Shown here piece after piece: positions 4,330 through 16,613 of a stretch of DNA of 64,000 nt. The stretch lies in contig DATKHY010000001.1 in NCBI GenBank assembly GCA_035544215.1, forward strand, positions 186,001 to 250,000, written 5' to 3'. Position numbers and translations under genes: made by a program. Numbering within the stretch: position 1 is the first letter of the stretch; the number at the start of each line of letters is the position of its first letter. Below the pieces are notes generated by a model. It made no database searches. It was not told where the DNA came from and saw nothing but the letters and a program-made list of their open reading frames with translations. The stretch comes from Candidatus Binatia bacterium (lineage in GTDB: Bacteria > Vulcanimicrobiota > Vulcanimicrobiia > Vulcanimicrobiales > Vulcanimicrobiaceae).

Positions 4330-4688
4330 TCCTCTATCTTCGGCAAAAATGGGAGAACTGTGGGGAGAAACAGCGCGTTCGGAGAATTGGCTAAGAAACG
4401 GTAGCCAGTGTCGCACGAGTTCGCGCCGATCCCCCGCAGTCAGGAAGCCGTCTCGCCCACAAAGTTTCCGGGGAATCTGTATCAGTGTGGCGACGTTGAC
4501 CACACCTTGGCGCCGCCACCCCGTTCAACGGATTAGACGGTCGGTTACGTACAGATTTCGAAGAACTCGCCGCAACCGATTCACCCACCAGCATGGAGCT
4601 CACGGGCCTTCCGATCCACCGTTATGCGATCGTTATACGAAGATCGGTCGATTCTGCGAAAGTGTAAGCAGCGTAAGGCGTTTTTCGC

Positions 4689-8569: not shown

Positions 8570-9232
8570 TCAGGGAGCAGGGACAACTAGATTCTTCCAA
8601 CCTAGACCGAGAACGAGTTGCCAGACGAGCAGCGGCAGCAAGGAGAGCGCGACGTTGCGAGGCGTAAGTACCTGAAATGCGACGATCGCGACGGCCTGGA
8701 CTATCGTGAGTCCCAATCCAAACCAGGGCGCAGCAGCCGACGTGCGGACCCTAACCAGCTGCAACGATAAAAGGAGCATCGAGAGGGTCATCAGCGCGAT
8801 TGCCAGCTTGGTAGAGTATTGAATTATAATCGCGCCGGCCGCGATAGCCGCGCGCATGTCAACGCTTCCGTCACCGAGGGTTAACTGCGGCGCGGCAAAC
8901 GCCGGGATGAGAAATCCGTCAAAGCTTCCCGCGACGTAGATAGCGGCCGTCGCGGTCGCGAACGCCAGCGCTGCAAGCGCCACGAGCGGACGACTGAACC
9001 CAAGCTGCGCACAAAAGGCGAGGACGCACGTTGCAACGACGAGTTGCAGGCCGATGGCGACCGCATGTATCACGCCTAATTGGAAACGAGCCTTAAAGAG
9101 CAGCTCGAGAAGATCTTTGTCGCTAAGTCCGTGACTGCTGCGGGCGGCGGGATGGTTTAGAAGCGTGACGAAGATTAACACCGTGGCCCATATCAAAATT
9201 CGCGCAAAGGTACCGCCCTGTTTATCCTGCAT
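8570..9232 (-). CDS. Integral membrane protein, possibly DUF4386-like
   Basis: From the ATG at 9230-9232 (MQDKQGG) the product is 220 aa with about six hydrophobic segments: ARILIWATVLIFVTLL near the N-terminus, LGVIHAVAIGLQLVVATCVL, VALAALAFATATAAIYVAG, IALMTLSMLLLSLQL, TIVQAVAIVAF and LSLLPLLVWQLVLGLG. No transporter or enzyme motif is visible. The hydrophobic layout resembles small DUF4386-type membrane proteins, which I cannot confirm. A GTG start at 9274 is possible but would overlap the divergent TetR gene. Regulation by that TetR protein is the simplest inference from the head-to-head arrangement. Confidence 0.7.
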   Translation of the reverse strand: MQDKQGGTFARILIWATVLIFVTLLNHPAARSSHGLSDKDLLELLFKARFQLGVIHAVAIGLQLVVATCVLAFCAQLGFSRPLVALAALAFATATAAIYVAGSFDGFLIPAFAAPQLTLGDGSVDMRAAIAAGAIIIQYSTKLAIALMTLSMLLLSLQLVRVRTSAAAPWFGLGLTIVQAVAIVAFQVLTPRNVALSLLPLLVWQLVLGLGWKNLVVPAP

Positions 9233-9253
9233 GTCGATGAGGGTAGCGCCCCA

Positions 9254-9796
9254 GTGAGTAGATACAATAGACACTCGGGTCGAAGTGTCCGGAAAAGCCG
9301 TGACGCGATCGTCACGACATTCAACGGCCTCGTCTTAAACGGTTGGTATGCCGAGACGGGGGTAAGCGAACTCGTGGTGAAGGCGGGAGTTGGCCGTTCG
9401 ACGTTCTACGAGCACTTCGACGGCAAAACTGCCTTGCTCGTCGAATGCATGTATCCGCTGCTTTCGGTTCTAGCTGAGACGGCGTCCGGAATGGACGTGC
9501 CGCGGTTGGCGTGCGTTCTCGCGCATTTCGAGGAGCAGCGCGCTAACGCCTTAACAATCTTTCAAGGTACTAGGGAGCGCTCGGCCATCGAGGCGAGTCT
9601 CGCGAAGCTGATCGCGGAGCATCTACCTCGCAACGGAAGTACTTTGCCGCGCGGCGACATTGCGAAGACCCTTTCCCGCCTGTCGATCGGGCTCATCGGC
9701 GACTGGCTCGCTGCCGATCGTCGGGTTCATTGCACTGAGTTTGGCTCCGTGTTCCTGAGGACCGCGTCGACTTGCCGACGCGCTCTGATCATGTAA
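9254..9796 (+). CDS. TetR/AcrR family transcriptional regulator
   Basis: The 180-aa protein has a typical TetR N-terminal HTH at about residues 12-60. RDAIVTTFNGLVLNGW leads into VSELVVKAGVGRSTFYEHFD and GKTALLVECMYPLL, the recognition helix being VGRSTFYEHF. The C-terminal ligand-binding half is not recognisable. It starts at GTG 9254, which overlaps no gene if the divergent membrane protein begins at 9232. The shared 20-bp intergenic interval implies it controls the membrane gene and itself. Confidence 0.85.
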   Translation: MSRYNRHSGRSVRKSRDAIVTTFNGLVLNGWYAETGVSELVVKAGVGRSTFYEHFDGKTALLVECMYPLLSVLAETASGMDVPRLACVLAHFEEQRANALTIFQGTRERSAIEASLAKLIAEHLPRNGSTLPRGDIAKTLSRLSIGLIGDWLAADRRVHCTEFGSVFLRTASTCRRALIM

Positions 9797-9835
9797 CGTG
9801 AACGGAACGATAGCATAGGCTGGCTGCATTTTAGC

Positions 9836-9952
9836 TGCCTCCGGTATCCAAGGCTCGGAATTGTAGCAGCGGTCCTGCGTCGGGATCCTTGCCGTAAAAC
9901 GCTCGAGACATGGGTCCATAGTCCTGGGAGTCGCCGCGCGAAAACCCGCCCG
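9836..9952. repeat. ~115-bp direct repeat, left copy
   Basis: Sequence from GCCTCCGGTATCCAAG to GGAATCGCCGCG-type is shared with 16667-16787 with about a dozen substitutions and no large gaps. On the minus strand it reads as protein (GDSQDYGPM..RAFYGKDPD then LQFRALDTGGS stop), so both copies may be the last codons of a lost gene. The two copies flank the 10.3-16.6 kb peptide-use locus in the same orientation. Confidence 0.7.
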
Positions 9953-10289
9953 GCCGCCGCGCACAGTCACGAGCGCAAGCCCCGCACGGCCAAGTTCACG
10001 AACATCGAGAGCAAGCTGTCCAAGCCGCGGAATGCGCCGACCGAGCCAAAGCTCAAAACGAAGGGCTCGTACTCCTGGCGAGCAGGGCAGGCTCGTATTA
10101 TAGGCATACCCGCGGAGCGCGGAGCCGGCGCACAGCATTGCGTGAACGGTCGTCGGGTTCTGGGCGGACTTCTGATGTCCAACGTCCCACCGGAGTGAGA
10201 TCGAGCCTACGGGCCATGAGCTGACCGCCGCAGAGGGATCCAAGGGTGGTGCGGTCTGGACAACCGGGACGACGAGCGAGAGCATGCGA
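9953..10289. other. No gene recognised
   Basis: The region lies between the left ~115-bp repeat and the solute-binding protein gene. Frames that are open on the minus strand (SQSRAVRCGT-type) are low in protein character. Nothing else supported. Confidence 0.4.
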
Positions 10290-11834
10290 TTAGCCTCGAT
10301 GGGTCTCTCGCCATTGCGCGACGTTCCACAACGGACTGCCGACCGGGATTGGATGCAAACCCCGCATCGAGGCAGGCGCGACAATGGCATCTACGCGCCA
10401 GAACAATGTATAAAAGGGCAAGTCACGGATCAACACGCGCTGTTCGGCCGCATAAGCGCGTGCGCGGGTGGAGCGGTCAAACTCGTCTACAGCGGAACGA
10501 ACCAGCGCATCGACCCGTGGATTGGAGTAGGCGGCGACGTTGACGCCGTTCGGCGGCATCGAGTCCGACAGGACGAAGCGCGAATCGTCGGGGTCGGGCG
10601 AAACGGCGATGTAGGAGAAAAGCGCGATTTGAAACCGACCACCCATGAGCAGACCGCCGTCGTTTGCCGCAGCGAGAAGGAGGTTCGCCGAAACGTTCTT
10701 GAGCGCGACGTCGATCCCGGCGGCTTTGCACTGGGCTTGAGTCACGATCCCGAGCCAGTACCGCTCTTCGTCGCCCGTCGCGCTGACGAGCGTCATCTGG
10801 GGGTGCGCGATGCCAGCAAGGCGCAGTTCCCGGCGCGCAGCGCGCAGGTCGAACGGATAGAAATGCACGTGCGGGTCGCGCGCCCAAGAATCCGGGCCCT
10901 GGTCGAGCGGCGCCAGGCCTGCATAACCTCCGAAGAGCTGTGTGCGAATCCGAATCGGATCGAGCGCGTAGGCGATTGCTCTGCGGACGTGAACATTACT
11001 CTGCGGCCCGCTCCCGGACCGCAAGTTGAAGGTCAGGTGCTCCCATTGGAAGGTTGGCGTTGCAACGATTTGGAGTGACCGCTCGGATTGCAACGGCGTT
11101 AATGCCGGCGCCGACAGGTGCAAGGCAACTTCGACCTCGCCCGTGAGGAGCGCTAGAACCAGACCTTGTTCGTTTGGAATGATACGGATAACGACTCGCG
11201 CGAAAACCGCTCGACGATCTGCATAGGGGTTGCGCTCGAATACGAGCTCGGAGCCGCGATGCCACGCTACGAGGCGATAGGGTCCCGTTCCAATCGCCGG
11301 CGAATGCGATGAGACGAGCGCGCCTTGCCGAGTGTCAGCGAAGAGGGACAAGGCCGGTGCGTATTTCGCCTTTAGATGAATGCGCACGGTCCAGCGGGCC
11401 GGTGCATCGATCGCTCCAATGCGCGCGTACCCGCCGCGTACCGGAACGTTAGCGCGTGGGTCCACGAGCGAACGCCATGTAAAGATGACGTCGCGAGCGG
11501 TAACGGGCGATCCATCGCTCCAGCGAACGTTCCGTCGCAAATGATACACGATGGTCCGGCCGTCCGCGCTGATGCCGCAATTCGCGCGCGACGGCACTTC
11601 AATGGCAAGGTCGGGCAGAATCTCGCCGTGCGGCCCGAACTTCACCAAGCCGTCGCGCGTGAGCGCAAAAATATCGTTCGCTACGGCGAGGTTCGCGAGT
11701 CGAGGATCGAGTGAATCCGGTTCCTGCGCTTCACCAATAACGAGTGTGTTCGCGTCGAGCGCCGGGCGTGTGCAGGACGAGAGCGCGAAAGCTGCCAGGA
11801 GTATTGCCATGCACACGTGTATACAATCACGCAT
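10290..11834 (-). CDS. Peptide/nickel-type ABC transporter solute-binding lipoprotein (SBP family 5)
   Basis: The 514-aa protein starts MRDCIHVCMAILLAAFALSS with the lipobox LSSC, so it is exported and lipid-anchored. It has classic SBP_bac_5 features: an EAQEPDSLDPRLANLAVAND opening, the signature RNVRWSDGSPVTARDVIFTW, an IGTGPYRLVAWHRGSEL segment, then VRRAIAYALDPIRI and PPNGVNVAAYSNPRVDALV. It should capture oligopeptides for import, but no permease or ATPase genes are nearby, so it must serve a distant transporter or act as a receptor. Its ATG (11832-11834) overlaps the divergent GntR start, and a TGTATACA site sits just inside its coding start. Confidence 0.9.
   Translation of the reverse strand: MRDCIHVCMAILLAAFALSSCTRPALDANTLVIGEAQEPDSLDPRLANLAVANDIFALTRDGLVKFGPHGEILPDLAIEVPSRANCGISADGRTIVYHLRRNVRWSDGSPVTARDVIFTWRSLVDPRANVPVRGGYARIGAIDAPARWTVRIHLKAKYAPALSLFADTRQGALVSSHSPAIGTGPYRLVAWHRGSELVFERNPYADRRAVFARVVIRIIPNEQGLVLALLTGEVEVALHLSAPALTPLQSERSLQIVATPTFQWEHLTFNLRSGSGPQSNVHVRRAIAYALDPIRIRTQLFGGYAGLAPLDQGPDSWARDPHVHFYPFDLRAARRELRLAGIAHPQMTLVSATGDEERYWLGIVTQAQCKAAGIDVALKNVSANLLLAAANDGGLLMGGRFQIALFSYIAVSPDPDDSRFVLSDSMPPNGVNVAAYSNPRVDALVRSAVDEFDRSTRARAYAAEQRVLIRDLPFYTLFWRVDAIVAPASMRGLHPIPVGSPLWNVAQWRETHRG
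11818..11825. promoter_or_regulatory. TGTATACA operator candidate for the adjacent GntR regulator
   Basis: The palindrome TGTATACA lies 8 bases before the GntR start codon and within the first codons of the divergent solute-binding gene. FadR-type GntR repressors typically bind palindromes with a GT(n3)AC or GTATAC core. The same octamer occurs twice in tandem at 13875-13890, the only other divergent promoter of this locus. Confidence 0.6.
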
Positions 11835-12474
11835 GTTACGCACACTGAAGCTCGAAAGCACGGCAAGCGCGCTCGCAGAGCGCGTGCGCGAGGATATTCT
11901 GCAAGGAACGTTTGCTGCTGGCGATCCGCTTCCGCAGGAGGAGATCGCAGCGCGTTACGGAGTGAGCCGAAGCCCTTTGCGCGAAGCGCTTCGCCAGCTG
12001 GAGTCGGAGGGCTGGATCGATTACCAGCCTAATCGCGGTGCGGTCGTTGCGACGATCACCGCGAAAGACGTGCGCGAGCTCTATGCCGTGCGCCATATCT
12101 TGGAAGAAGGCGCGATCGAGCGCGCTATTCCGCAGCTCGATGACGCCCGGCTGCGTGAAGCAAAACGCATCGACAGCGAGCTGCGCCACACGACCGACCC
12201 GGCGAAGGCCGTCGTGTTGCATCGCGAGTTTCACGAGACGATCTACGGTGCTCTCGAGAATCCGCGCCTGATCGAAGCGATCTTTCGCCACCACGTGCGT
12301 GCGCAACGGTTGCCGGATCCCCAAGCCCGGATCGCTGCCGTTGCTAAGGCATCGCGCGTGGATCATCGAGTACTGCTCGAGGCCTGCGAGAGACGCGACC
12401 GGCGCGCGGCGGTGCACGCGACGCGCGAGCACCTCAATCATACGGAGGCGATCTTGCTCAAAGGACTCGAGTAG
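11833..12474 (+). CDS. GntR family regulator, FadR/FCD type
   Basis: The 213-aa protein has an N-terminal winged HTH (residues about 10-72) with the GntR signature: LAERVREDILQGTFAAGDPL, QEEIAARYGVSRSPLREALR and LESEGWIDYQPNRGAVVATI. The C-terminal all-helical FCD-like domain begins KDVRELYAVRHILEEGAIER and has conserved metal-site-like residues (DSELRHTTD, HREFHETIYG, HHVRAQ, EHLNHTEAIL). FCD proteins usually sense organic acids or amino-acid derivatives. It sits between the transporter lipoprotein and the peptidase. Its stop overlaps the convergent M20 gene end by 37 bases. TGTATACA sites at both divergent promoters point to local control. Confidence 0.9.
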   Translation: MLRTLKLESTASALAERVREDILQGTFAAGDPLPQEEIAARYGVSRSPLREALRQLESEGWIDYQPNRGAVVATITAKDVRELYAVRHILEEGAIERAIPQLDDARLREAKRIDSELRHTTDPAKAVVLHREFHETIYGALENPRLIEAIFRHHVRAQRLPDPQARIAAVAKASRVDHRVLLEACERRDRRAAVHATREHLNHTEAILLKGLE

Positions 12475-13865
12475 CGCGAGAAGCGCTCGAGAAGGTCGGC
12501 AATGGCGGATGCGCCGCGCACGAAATCCTCGAGACGTATATTCTCGTCTGGCGCGTGCTTGCAGGCGCCGGGGTAGCTGCAGCCGATGCCTGCAAAGGGA
12601 ATGCCGAGATGGCGCACGACGTGCGCAGCGGGCCCTGTTCCACCGACGAGCGGCGCCACGATCGGCTCCTTTCCGTAGTGTTCGCGCAGCACGTCGATGG
12701 TGAGCGCAATGAACGGATGATCGGGGTCACTGCAGGCCGCGGTAGATGCGGCGCCGGACGGTGCGACCTCGATATCGCCTAATCCGTGACGGGCGAGGTG
12801 CGAGCGCAAGGCTTGCAGCACCGTTTGCGGATCTTGCCCCGGAGCAAGACGGAAGTCGAGGCGGGCGTTCGCCGTCGCCGGGAGCACGGTCTTGTGGCCG
12901 CTTTCGATATGACCAGCCCAGAGGCCAGAGATGTTACATGTCGGTGAAAACACGGCTTCCCGCAAGGCGTATCCGCGGCGGCCGGCAACAAAGCGATCTA
13001 CGCCGTATTCGTTGCGATAAGTCGTTTCTTCATCGGGCATCGCGTGAAGCAGCTCGCGTTGCCGCTTCGTCGGCCCCGTTGCACCGGTATCGAACCCGTC
13101 GACTGTAATGCTGTCGCCTTCGCCTCGCATCGTTGCGAGCGCATGTACTAAACGCCACGCCGCGCTCGGCAATGCGTGCGCCCATCCGGAGTGAGCGTCG
13201 TGGCGCATGGTTCGCGCGCAGAGTTCGACGAACAGCAGCCCCCGAACGCCGAGCCAGATTTGAGGACGTCCTTCCCCATCGATCTGTCCGGCCTCCCAAA
13301 TGCATGCATCAGCGGAGAGCAAGTCGCAGTGCTGTGCAATGAACGTCTCGAGAGTGCGACTGCCGCTCTCCTCTTCGCCTTCGACGAAGAACGTGAGGCG
13401 GAGCGGAAGATCCTCACCGTATCGCTCGCGGAGAGTGTCTAGCGCCGCGAGGCGCGCGATGATCTCGCCCTTGTCGTCGATAACTCCACGCGCGAAGAGC
13501 TTCCCATCGCGCAACGTCGGTTCGAAGGGCGGCGACGTCCATTCGTCGAGCGGCTCCGGCGGCTGCACGTCGTAGTGATTGTAGAGCAAGACCGTACGGT
13601 CACCGTGGCCCACATGACCAACGACGACGGGGTTACCTCCAGCGGAGAGGACCTGCGTCTCGACTCCGCGTCGGCGTAAGGCCTGCGCGAGCCATCGCGC
13701 AGCCTCGGGGATTCCTGTGTCCTGGCTCGAGACGCTTGGGATGCGCGCAAAATCGCTTAGCTCTTGAACATATGCGTCCAGATTGCGCGCAACAAATGCG
13801 GTCCTGTCGTTCGCGCCCGAGTCCTCAACGATTTGTGGGTTGGCTCCCTCGTTTGACGACTCCAT
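12438..13865 (-). CDS. M20/M25/M40 family metallopeptidase
   Basis: The 475-aa cytosolic dipeptidase-type protein carries the M20 zinc-site motifs: LYNHYDVQPPEPLDEW (first His and Asp), ARGVIDDKGEII (bridging Asp), FFVEGEEESGS (catalytic Glu pair) and a C-terminal HAPDENIRLEDF (last His). A lid domain with RHDAHSGWAHALPSAAW lies between. The ATG at 13863-13865 (MESSNEG) is preferred, since an upstream alternative would read through the tandem TGTATACA operator. With the solute-binding protein and the TAP-type hydrolase it makes a peptide uptake and degradation locus. Divergently transcribed from the hydrolase across a 28-bp gap. Confidence 0.9.
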   Translation of the reverse strand: MESSNEGANPQIVEDSGANDRTAFVARNLDAYVQELSDFARIPSVSSQDTGIPEAARWLAQALRRRGVETQVLSAGGNPVVVGHVGHGDRTVLLYNHYDVQPPEPLDEWTSPPFEPTLRDGKLFARGVIDDKGEIIARLAALDTLRERYGEDLPLRLTFFVEGEEESGSRTLETFIAQHCDLLSADACIWEAGQIDGEGRPQIWLGVRGLLFVELCARTMRHDAHSGWAHALPSAAWRLVHALATMRGEGDSITVDGFDTGATGPTKRQRELLHAMPDEETTYRNEYGVDRFVAGRRGYALREAVFSPTCNISGLWAGHIESGHKTVLPATANARLDFRLAPGQDPQTVLQALRSHLARHGLGDIEVAPSGAASTAACSDPDHPFIALTIDVLREHYGKEPIVAPLVGGTGPAAHVVRHLGIPFAGIGCSYPGACKHAPDENIRLEDFVRGASAIADLLERFSRYSSPLSKIASV

Positions 13866-13874
13866 GTGCCATAG

Positions 13875-13890
13875 TGTATACATGTATACA
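13875..13890. promoter_or_regulatory. Tandem TGTATACA operator between M20 peptidase and hydrolase
   Basis: Two adjacent perfect palindromes TGTATACA TGTATACA fill most of the 28-bp gap between the divergent starts at 13865 and 13894. The octamer matches the single site at 11818-11825 upstream of the GntR gene. A bound FadR-type dimer or pair of dimers here would control both genes. Confidence 0.65.
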
Positions 13891-13893
13891 AGC

Positions 13894-15396
13894 ATGGGTC
13901 AAGCAATTTGGGTAACTGCCGCCGCGATCGTCATCACGCTTGGGTGGTTTCTCCCGGTACGCGAAGGCGCTGTGGCTTGGTCCACGCCGCCTGTTCTGCA
14001 GATGCACCCCTGCGTGGTGGGGCGCAGTCGCGCTCCGGCCGAGTGTGGGGCCTTCCGGGTTTACGAGAATCGCGCGGCGCATGCTGGGCGGACCATCGAG
14101 CTGGGCTTCATCTTGCTCAAGGCGCAGCATCCCAGCGGCCGGATGATCTATTTGAATCCAGGCGGCCCTGGCGGGCTTACTACGATTTACGCGAGCGTGC
14201 TTACGGGCAAGCAGCCCCCGACGTACATGAAGGCGCTCTGGATTCTACGTGACCGCTACGACATTCTGCTGCTCGACAATCGGGGCATAGGCGAGTCGCA
14301 TTCACTCGACTGCAGCACCATCTATTCACAAGCAAATCCAGCGCCGTACTATATGGAACTGTGGCCGTCGACAGCCTTGCGTGCATGCCGCGAGCGCGAG
14401 GCTCGGATCAGCAACTTGAGCCAGTACGTTACGGACAATGCGGTCGACGATCTCAACGACCTCCGCGCAGAGCTTGGATATCGGAAGATCGTGCTCTTTG
14501 GCGACTCGGGTGGAACCTATTTCTCTCTGATGTATATGCGGCGCCACCCCGCGAGCGTCGAGAGCGCCCTGCTCAACGGTGTCGCACCACCGCACCTGTT
14601 GATCGTCCCGCTTCCCGACGCGCACGCGGCCCAGCTTGCTGTCAACAACCTTATCCGCGAATGCGCGTCGGACGGCGAATGCCACGCCCACTTTCCGCTC
14701 CTGGAGCAGCATTTTGCAGCGCTACTGACGCGTCTCAACCGCGGCCCGATTGCAATCACCATTCGAAATGAGAGCACTCATCGGCTGCAGCAGGTCCTGC
14801 TTTCAAAAGAAGTCTTCGCGGATCGGATGCGACAGGCGCTTTACTCCTCCGGATTCGGCAAATACGTGCCGCTTGCGGTCGAGGACGCATACCGCGGTAA
14901 CGATCTAGCCTTGGGTGAACTGATTGATAGCGTGACGCTTTTTTTTGCGCACATCCTAGATACCGGTGCGAACCTTTCATACACCTGCGCCGAATATGTA
15001 CCATTCATTACCCCCGCGATGATGGCGCGTACGAGCGCAGGATCGTTCATGGGCGATTTGCGCGTGCGCGCTCAACAACGCGCCTGTGCAATTTGGAGCG
15101 TACGGCCCGTGCCGGCATCGGAGAACACGATTGTCAGCAGCACGCTACCGGTACTCATGGTTTCCGGCACGAACGATCCTGCAAGCCCGGCCATCTTCGC
15201 GCAGCAGGAGCTGCCGTATCTACCGAACGCGCAGCTCGTGTTGCAGCGCGGAGCAGGGCACACCGACGATTCCGACTGCACCGTTGGGCTGGAAGTGGAC
15301 TTCATACTCGCGCATTCTGCAAGAGGGCTTGATGCCGCGTCCTGCGCCGGCTCGTGGCACCGTCCGCCATTCGTGTATTCGTTGCCAGGCACGTGA
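13894..15396 (+). CDS. Alpha/beta hydrolase with TAP-like C-terminal domain (prolyl aminopeptidase type)
   Basis: The 500-aa protein begins with an N-terminal hydrophobic signal (IWVTAAAIVITLGWFL), so it is probably exported. The alpha/beta hydrolase fold shows an oxyanion segment YLNPGGPGG, LLLDNRGIGES, nucleophile elbow FGDSGGTY (Ser205) and, in the C-terminal TAP-like part, VSGTNDPASP (Asp) and GAGHT (His). This is the arrangement of tripeptidyl/prolyl aminopeptidases of family S33. It probably trims peptides outside the membrane and cooperates with the peptide-binding lipoprotein. The start at ATG 13894 lies after the tandem operator. The gene downstream starts 5 bases after its stop. Confidence 0.9.
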   Translation: MGQAIWVTAAAIVITLGWFLPVREGAVAWSTPPVLQMHPCVVGRSRAPAECGAFRVYENRAAHAGRTIELGFILLKAQHPSGRMIYLNPGGPGGLTTIYASVLTGKQPPTYMKALWILRDRYDILLLDNRGIGESHSLDCSTIYSQANPAPYYMELWPSTALRACREREARISNLSQYVTDNAVDDLNDLRAELGYRKIVLFGDSGGTYFSLMYMRRHPASVESALLNGVAPPHLLIVPLPDAHAAQLAVNNLIRECASDGECHAHFPLLEQHFAALLTRLNRGPIAITIRNESTHRLQQVLLSKEVFADRMRQALYSSGFGKYVPLAVEDAYRGNDLALGELIDSVTLFFAHILDTGANLSYTCAEYVPFITPAMMARTSAGSFMGDLRVRAQQRACAIWSVRPVPASENTIVSSTLPVLMVSGTNDPASPAIFAQQELPYLPNAQLVLQRGAGHTDDSDCTVGLEVDFILAHSARGLDAASCAGSWHRPPFVYSLPGT

Positions 15397-15401
15397 GGCA
15401 A

Positions 15402-16613
15402 ATGAGCGTAAGCGCCCGCAGCAGCCGGCTCCCGGCGATGGACATCCTCCGAGGTCTTGCCATCGTATTCATGGCGCTCGATCACGCCCGAGACTTCACG
15501 TCGAACATTTCCTTTGAGCCGGAGGACCTCACGCACACATTCCCGGCGCTGTTTTTCACGCGTTGGGTGACGCATTACAGCGCGCCAGTCTTTTTCTTCT
15601 TGGCAGGAACCGGAGCATATTTGATGTTGTCCAGGACAGGATCGATCCGCGCCGTGTCGCGTTTTCTTTGGACACGGGGGCTCTGGCTGATCCTCGTCGA
15701 GTTCACAATCGTGTGGTTCGCTTGGACGTTTCTCTTCCCCGGACATCTTTTCGGCGTTTTAGCGTCACTCGGCGTGTCCATGATCTTGCTCGCGGCTTTG
15801 ATTCGCCTCCCCATACCATGGCTCGCCGGCATTTCATTGCTAGTGATATGTGCGCACGACTTGCTCGATCCGATAACAGTGCACTCCGTCGGCAGCCTAG
15901 GTTGGATCTGGGCGCTCTTGCACGCGCGCACTGTGGTAGTGTTGCCTGTCATCAACTGGCCCACATTTGTGTTATTCCCGCTGATCCCGCTTGCGTTCGT
16001 GATGTCCGCGGGGTTTGCTTTTGGCACTGTGATGAGCCGCAGTACCGAGGAGCGGGTAAGAATAGCTGCAGTGATAGGGTGCGCCGCTACAGTGTCGTTC
16101 CTAATACTTCGTGGATTCAATCTGTATGGCAACCCCGCCGCGGCATTCGCCGCTTCCTCGCCGGGGCCGTGGCATCCGCGAGGGACGTTGGCCATGTCGG
16201 TCGTCTCGTTCTTGGACGTCGAAAAGTATCCGACCTCGCTGCAGTTTCTGTTGATGACGCTCGGTCCGGCGCTGATACTACTCGCCGTCGTCGACCGCGT
16301 GACGTCGCGAGGGCGCGTTCCCACGCTATTGCGCCCGATACTCGTATTCGGGCAAGTGCCATTTTTTTTCTACGTGCTTCACCTCTTCGTGATCCATCTT
16401 GCCGCGATTGGGATCTTTGTCACTATAGGCGCTCCCATCGGTTGGCTTTTGCACGGCGGATTTTTTGCGGCTCAGCCACCAGCCGGACTCGGACTCTCAT
16501 TGCCAGAAGTGTGGTTGTTTTGGCTTGCCGTCGTTGCCGCTTTATATTTTCCGTGCGCCGCTTTTGCGCGTTACAAGAAGCTGCACGATGACTGGTGGCT
16601 AAGCTACCTATGA
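15402..16613 (+). CDS. Heparan-alpha-glucosaminide N-acetyltransferase-like membrane protein (DUF1624)
   Basis: The 403-aa product has about ten membrane segments. The first shows the diagnostic RLPAMDILRGLAIVFMALDH, then THYSAPVFFFLAGTGAYLM, both typical of DUF1624/HGSNAT-type acyltransferases. The conserved Asp and His of the LDHARDF loop are present. A GAGG Shine-Dalgarno sequence precedes the ATG at 15402, five bases after the hydrolase stop, so the two are co-transcribed. The substrate is unknown; modification of a cell-envelope sugar is the usual guess for this family. A longer start at 15354 would overlap the hydrolase. Confidence 0.85.
   Translation: MSVSARSSRLPAMDILRGLAIVFMALDHARDFTSNISFEPEDLTHTFPALFFTRWVTHYSAPVFFFLAGTGAYLMLSRTGSIRAVSRFLWTRGLWLILVEFTIVWFAWTFLFPGHLFGVLASLGVSMILLAALIRLPIPWLAGISLLVICAHDLLDPITVHSVGSLGWIWALLHARTVVVLPVINWPTFVLFPLIPLAFVMSAGFAFGTVMSRSTEERVRIAAVIGCAATVSFLILRGFNLYGNPAAAFAASSPGPWHPRGTLAMSVVSFLDVEKYPTSLQFLLMTLGPALILLAVVDRVTSRGRVPTLLRPILVFGQVPFFFYVLHLFVIHLAAIGIFVTIGAPIGWLLHGGFFAAQPPAGLGLSLPEVWLFWLAVVAALYFPCAAFARYKKLHDDWWLSYL

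Follow-up and report, generated by a model that had tools for sequence, protein, structure and literature searches.

The 64,000-nucleotide stretch of the Candidatus Binatia bacterium genome analyzed here (contig DATKHY010000001.1, positions 186,001 to 250,000; hereinafter, the window) contains a compact locus in which a GntR-family regulator, a solute-binding protein and two predicted peptidases are encoded in two divergent pairs, and copies of the octamer TGTATACA (the box) lie between the genes of each pair. The question raised by this locus is whether the regulator governs itself and its neighbors through these boxes, as proposed in a preceding sequence-only reading that described an autoregulated local regulon for peptide uptake and degradation and, if so, how. 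Our analysis suggests that the locus is a self-contained, autoregulated GntR regulon in which four promoters would be repressed via two double operators; we put the probability of this interpretation at about 0.75. By the sequence evidence, gntR, the gene for the peptide-binding protein and the two peptidase genes are very probably controlled by GntR through two palindromes. The principal features are the following:

11810..11825, no strand: operator 1, degenerate left box TGCACACG followed by an exact TGTATACA (11818-11825), between gntR and the solute-binding gene
13875..13890, no strand: operator 2, TGTATACATGTATACA, two exact boxes forming one 16-bp palindrome, between the M20 peptidase and TAP-type hydrolase genes
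11833..12474, plus strand: gntR, regulator with a GntR winged helix-turn-helix (wHTH) and an FCD domain, 213 amino acids, VanR-like (PF00392, 4.3e-21; PF07729, 7.2e-18)
10290..11810, minus strand: solute-binding protein (SBP) of family 5, peptide/nickel class (SBP_bac_5, PF00496, 1.5e-61)
12438..13865, minus strand: M20 peptidase, dipeptidase-like (PF01546, 2e-28; M20_dimer, PF07687, 9.8e-13)
13894..15396, plus strand: TAP-type alpha/beta hydrolase, S33-like, with a hydrophobic N-terminus (Abhydrolase_1, PF00561, 7.3e-14; TAP-like, PF08386, 1.2e-11)

Two candidate double operators confined to the locus

The box occurs in the window at 11818-11825, 13875-13882 and 13883-13890, and nowhere else; 0.25 copies are expected, and none of 100 shuffled sequences reached three. 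In the complete genome (G000; 3,230,016 bases), six copies were detected, along with four of a control, the same pattern read backwards, so that a few boxes are expected by chance. The sequence-only reading had named a high background frequency as one finding that would speak against it; at six copies in 3.23 Mb, the background is low. Two of the three copies outside the locus are located inside open frames (C3:50047 and C9:65772) and the third at the ATG of an open frame (C4:68732), and no second box adjoins any of them on either side (5 to 7 mismatches). When up to three mismatches are allowed, the 16-mer TGTATACATGTATACA is found at just two places genome-wide (control, 0), namely, the exact copy at 13875-13890 and TGCACACGTGTATACA at 11810-11825, which differs from it at three positions. 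These double operators are separated by 2.07 kb, and each occupies the tiny gap of a divergent gene pair. The genome scan for the tandem site that had been suggested earlier thus leads back to this locus alone; the three box positions given previously are correct, but what had been taken for a lone box at the gntR/solute-binding pair consists of two boxes, one of them degenerate.

The regulator

The gntR product belongs to the FCD class of the GntR superfamily, with scores well over the respective cut-offs (PF00392, 74.8 bits, cut-off 27; PF07729, 65.6 bits, cut-off 24.3). FCD effector domains consist of six helices in the VanR group and seven in FadR. The predicted structural model of the protein (predicted local distance difference test score, pLDDT, 90.3) includes six C-terminal helices (residues 77-101, 104-119, 123-141, 144-152, 163-186 and 190-210), which would place it in the VanR group and makes the earlier designation "FadR-type" too broad. 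According to Suvorova 2015 (PMC4494728), the operator consensus of the VanR group has GT and AC two nucleotides apart, as is the case in TGTATACA.

A Foldseek search with the model ranked 3c7j first and retrieved chains of Atu1419 at ranks 4 to 10 and later, with E about 1e-9; the matches include the Atu1419-DNA complex 6za3 (E 1.8e-9; approximately 23% identity). In Atu1419, DNA is contacted by Ser44, Arg45, Thr46 and Arg49, and zinc is held by Asn137, His141, His192 and His214 (PMC7797058). The corresponding residues of the window GntR are S45, R46, S47 and R50, assuming a one-residue offset from the local match, and H130, H134, H178 and H200, which would form a putative metal site, in keeping with the pattern of metal-binding FCD regulators (Asn, Asp or His followed by three His); in the retropepsin-linked relatives, the last His is missing. 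Position 47 is Ile in many relatives, which indicates that the contact at this position is not required for the box. Among the 31 candidates in its own genome, there is one match to the window GntR at E<=0.001.

The box tracks the regulator, not the targets

We compared 46 GntR loci, 44 of which could be oriented, taking -300..+30 of the gene start as the upstream zone. An exact TGTATACA is present at 17 of the 44 loci of phylum GntR homologues, with 22 boxes in 14,520 upstream bases; the remaining 136,115 bases of the same loci contain only two, both of which are the window's operator 2, and no copy was counted for any of four control octamers. The exact box is found at three of 30 TAP loci, those with gntR alongside (the window, G047 and G053), and at none of the 27 others, two of which belong to the most similar TAP homologues (62 and 64% identity); this contrast separates conservation linked to the regulator from conservation linked to the target. 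The double site (at most one mismatch) was detected in five of 60 genomes, in all five beside a gntR gene. Comparison of operators among relatives, which had been put forward as a check, thus shows the box to follow gntR rather than the target genes.

A scan of named genomes with the window GntR alone as the query yielded no match. With an alignment query, the box was found in 36 of the best 80 of 599 stretches, a biased sample; 32 of these 36 are cyanobacterial, and of the 33 cyanobacterial loci, identified by record titles, among the same 80, 32 contain it.

Several arrangements seen in this survey are recorded here in their own right. The nearest cyanobacterial homologues of the regulator are often preceded by a pair of TGTATACA boxes with a spacing of 14 or 21 bp, and in Nostoc sp. 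LEGE 06077 (L147, about 4495-4575), the neighbor divergent from gntR is a LeuA-like 2-isopropylmalate synthase. In another GntR lineage with the box (L041:9968, L042:8985, L141:7141 and 7185), several genomes carry two boxes 44 bp apart, and one gntR neighbor in L041 is methylmalonyl-CoA mutase. In G023 (L044:3834), TGTATACA and a one-mismatch box nine bases away from it lie between genes for a GntR protein and an enoyl-CoA hydratase. Finally, in a lineage without TGTATACA, an 18-bp palindrome, TAGATAATATATTATCTA, lies at the start of a GntR gene divergent from that of an Asp_protease_2 protein (L011:1473-1490); its core is present in L012 and not in L016.

Predicted promoter geometry

We examined six double sites (window operator 2, G003, G008, G014, G036 and G112) for -35 elements, defined as hexamers with at least 5/6 matches to TTGACA located 16-18 bp upstream of a -10 register within the operator. 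Such a hexamer is present on both strands of every site (12 of 12 sides, compared to 2.0% per side at random positions in the same loci); given that G003 and G014 are near copies, at most five loci and ten sides are independent. In the window, the predicted elements are:

13853..13858, plus strand: predicted -35 of the hydrolase promoter, TTGACG, 18 bp before TATACA (13877-13882); predicted RNA start at 13889, ATG 5 nt later
13897..13902, minus strand: predicted -35 of the M20 promoter, TTGACC, 16 bp before TATACA (13880-13875) or 18 bp before TACACT (13878-13873)

The M20 transcript is predicted to start at 13868 or 13866, with the ATG at 13865. At the sequence level, the putative overlapping -10 elements with a predicted -35 on both strands would fit the geometry of bidirectional promoters, for which the preferred spacings between RNA starts are 10, 18 or 23 bp (PMC12825309): the predicted starts are 23 bp apart in five of the six double sites, all from relatives, and 21 bp apart in the window (23 in the other register). 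The start codon of gntR coincides exactly with the predicted RNA start (0 bases) in all five relatives; that of the adjoining aspartyl-protease-like gene follows it by 1 to 4 bases in four of them and by 22 in the fifth. In the window, the respective distances are 5 bases for the hydrolase and 3 for the M20 peptidase, and for gntR and the solute-binding gene, 1 base if TATACA is their -10.

These features suggest the following mechanism. A dimer of the GntR/FCD protein would bind the TGTATACA boxes at the two double operators, repressing gntR itself and the solute-binding gene from operator 1, and the M20 peptidase and TAP-type hydrolase genes from operator 2. At operator 2, the box would double as the shared -10 of two overlapping, opposite promoters, with the putative -35 of each located a short way into the coding sequence of the other gene, so that the bound repressor would block RNA polymerase both ways at once; we infer that repression works by such occlusion of the -10 in both directions. 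Transcription would begin at the start codons themselves or a few bases ahead of them, making the mRNAs leaderless or nearly so. The adjacent second box might provide a position for a second dimer and, with it, tighter control; operator 1, where one of the boxes is poor and a -35 is lacking, is likely to be the weaker of the two. The most likely inducer would be a short peptide or an amino acid that occupies the putative metal-centered FCD pocket.

Several observations weigh against this interpretation or its generality. Operator 1, the autoregulatory site, has no -35-like box on either side (best, 2/6 matches); it is left unexplained by the promoter model and counts against a uniform one. Among the single-box sites of relatives, four of 24 sides have a -35 (background, 1%). 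The window contains too few TATAAT-like hexamers for a test of leaderless starts. Dimers bound to both boxes, at a distance of 8 bp, may collide, and NanR, the nearest precedent, with its GGTATA repeats, needs an N-terminal extension that has no counterpart in the window GntR (PMC8012715). In the phylum set, no exact box is present in the upstream zone at 27 of the 44 GntR loci, including those of the close homologues in G087 and G022; in G113 and G115, it is the S9 gene at the head of the operon that the box precedes; and the solute-binding partner is not conserved. On balance, the notion of an autoregulated local regulon is partly borne out, with good backing from comparative genomics, by the rarity of the box, the restriction of double sites to the locus, the association of the box with gntR, the match to the Atu1419 operator core and the presence of a sole such GntR in the genome; binding and repression are what these observations lead us to expect.

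Recurrent association with peptidases

Homologues of the M20 peptidase (E<=1e-80) are encoded in four of 117 class genomes (G000, G047, G081 and G113), each beside a gntR homologue. The gene order varies: in G047, M20-gntR is divergent from TAP, with ATTGTATACAAT in between; in G053, TAP is divergent from gntR, at a contig end; the orders are box-gntR-S9-M20 in G081, box-S9-M20-gntR in G113 and box-S9-gntR-S58 in G115. In G003, G008, G014, G036, G112 and G102, the partner of gntR is aspartyl-protease-like, as judged by Pfam for G112, G003 and G036 and by tblastn similarity for G008, G014 and G102; G036 also has a convergent SBP family 5 gene (30% identical). Altogether, this type of GntR is paired with a peptidase-like gene (M20, S33, S9, S58 or aspartyl-protease-like) in 12 genomes including the window, and in all 12 an exact box is found at the promoter of at least one of these two genes.

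In the phylogenetic tree of all 43 GntR rows, the 10 rows labeled as peptidase-linked, a label assigned after the neighborhoods were seen, fall on one side with weak support (54/89). In a repeat build, the label requires two changes, and a tree uniting the labeled rows is not rejected by the approximately unbiased test (p-AU 0.594); after removal of four long rows (L015, L128, L019 and L020), support for the labeled rows rises to 98/96, with 98% of bootstraps. L131 (G036) and L126 (too short), as well as L025 (G053), are outside the tree. Support for a clade of the labeled rows is thus weak with all rows and strong without the four long ones. L011, labeled "other", adjoins the Asp_protease_2 protein, and L012 and L016 have a similar neighbor by eye, which implies peptidase linkage outside the labeled group as well. 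There is no support for recent exchange of operator 2 with relatives in either direction: the surroundings of 55-56 bases match at only 24-30 positions, mostly within the operator.

We tentatively propose, with somewhat more doubt than confidence, that a GntR clade of Eremiobacterota rules peptidases of at least five families via one element, in which the repressor palindrome would be identical with the -10 that a leaderless promoter uses in both directions and one dimer would shut two genes. Under this proposal, the regulator would persist through changes of enzyme family, and new peptidase genes would come under its control when they arrive next to it and the element.

Other features of the locus

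The gene identities given in the sequence-only reading (GntR with FCD, SBP_bac_5, M20 with M20_dimer, Abhydrolase_1 with TAP-like) are confirmed by Pfam. The best NCBIfam matches of the M20 protein, PRK06446 and PRK08201 (dipeptidase), are both under their cut-offs. The SBP has a short N-terminus that reads as lipoprotein-like, and its true start could be further upstream; there is no exact TGTATACA near its best relative (51% identical, G030). The gntR and M20 genes are convergent, with 3' ends overlapping by 37 bp (12438-12474), so that their mRNAs would be partly antisense. One further gene probably is co-transcribed with the hydrolase gene, the end of which it overlaps:

15354..16613, plus strand: HGSNAT_cat membrane protein (PF07786, 2.6e-14)

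The seven proteins domain-scanned at 8570-16613 include no ABC permease, although no search was aimed at permeases. As for the presumed role in peptide uptake and degradation, degradation is supported by the recurrent peptidase partners and by the M20 and TAP genes that flank operator 2, and uptake is suggested by one SBP family 5 gene. In addition, a TetR-type gene (9254-9796, plus strand) and a gene for a small hydrophobic protein (8570-9274, minus strand) have overlapping starts as called (9254-9274) and form another very tight divergent pair.

Alternative explanations

It is unlikely, but deserves serious attention, that the regulon is real and yet responds to a signal or serves a purpose other than peptide nutrition, such as turnover of one specific compound, of cell-wall peptides or of a modified amino acid. 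Amides and esters other than peptides are also substrates of the M20 and alpha/beta hydrolase families, the NCBIfam matches for SBP family 5 include nickel, glutathione and opine carriers, the HGSNAT_cat protein seems to be part of the same transcript, and neighboring GntR lineages adjoin a mandelate-racemase-like enzyme and proline racemase; nevertheless, the partners in relatives switch family (S9, M20, S33, S58, aspartyl-protease-like) and remain peptidase-like.

That GntR activates rather than represses some of the promoters appears improbable: the missing -35 at operator 1 is what an activator-dependent promoter would be expected to show, but the boxes extend over the -10 region, and a protein bound there normally obstructs RNA polymerase; furthermore, the Atu1419 boxes over -10 elements mediate repression (PMC7797058). 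There is a similarly small chance that a different GntR/FCD regulator of the same genome acts on these sites in trans, a notion encouraged by the presence of the same box at related GntRs with other targets (the methylmalonyl-CoA mutase and enoyl-CoA hydratase loci) and opposed by the single genomic match to the window GntR and by the proximity of both double sites to gntR (<=2.1 kb). Least probable of all, the boxes would be mere -10 elements or chance occurrences: TATACA and TACAnT do resemble -10 elements, start codons follow 1 to 11 bases on, and the backward octamer occurs four times in the genome, but a general -10 element would be common, whereas the box is rare and absent from the 27 TAP loci without gntR, grounds on which we reject this explanation, and it strongly co-occurs with gntR both in the phylum and in the cyanobacterial loci.

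Comparison with known systems

The autoregulated GntR regulon proposed here combines a known box and regulator family with a regulon content and a predicted fusion of promoter and operator that are new. The octamer agrees with the consensus for the FadR subfamily and with the rules for divergons in Suvorova 2015 (PMC4494728), according to which FadR/HutC divergons have GT..AC palindromes with a 2-nt gap in divergent pairs, as single or double sites, with weak extra boxes 7-12 nt from the center; the words "promoter" and "peptide" were not found in the main text of that work, nor Eremiobacterota in the available part of its taxon table. A literature search, with most subscription papers outside its reach, found neither a GntR peptidase regulon nor a repressor palindrome that is itself a shared -10, and searching for the octamer TGTATACA returned mostly unrelated primers and vectors.

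The closest parallel is Atu1419 of Agrobacterium fabrum, a GntR/FCD regulator of the VanR group crystallized with ATGTATACAT (PMC7797058): its verified operator core matches TGTATACA and overlaps the -10 boxes, the regulator's own gene is a target, and the residues at the wHTH contact and four metal-ligand positions match in sequence. The Atu1419 boxes, however, are 190 bp apart and are bridged by DNA looping through a tetramer, and the protein controls hydroxycinnamate catabolism, with methylenetetrahydrofolate as the proposed effector; in the window, the boxes abut at 8 bp, and the predicted targets are peptidases. NanR of Escherichia coli, a GntR/FCD repressor that binds the closely packed repeats (GGTATA)3 cooperatively, one dimer per repeat (PMC8012715), resembles the window locus in its packing. 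The NanR repeats are direct, cooperativity involves the N-terminal extension, and the operator is downstream of the polymerase site, whereas each box of the window is itself a palindrome over the predicted -10.

Binding of a regulator over two -10 regions has been described for AlkR (PMC12042122). The bidirectional promoters of Warman and colleagues, most often tied to mRNA synthesis, have a shared symmetric -10 and RNA starts 23 bp apart (PMC12825309), much as predicted for operator 2 and its counterparts. According to this 2026 paper, control of such promoters had been entirely unknown; the regulated examples in its available part involve activators, the MerR-type SoxR, and AcrR, and none of these is a repressor palindrome doubling as the shared -10. 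The six natural loci that appear to have this arrangement make control of both directions by one protein testable in vitro on short DNA and could provide a regulatory handle on peptide degradation in the candidate phylum Eremiobacterota.

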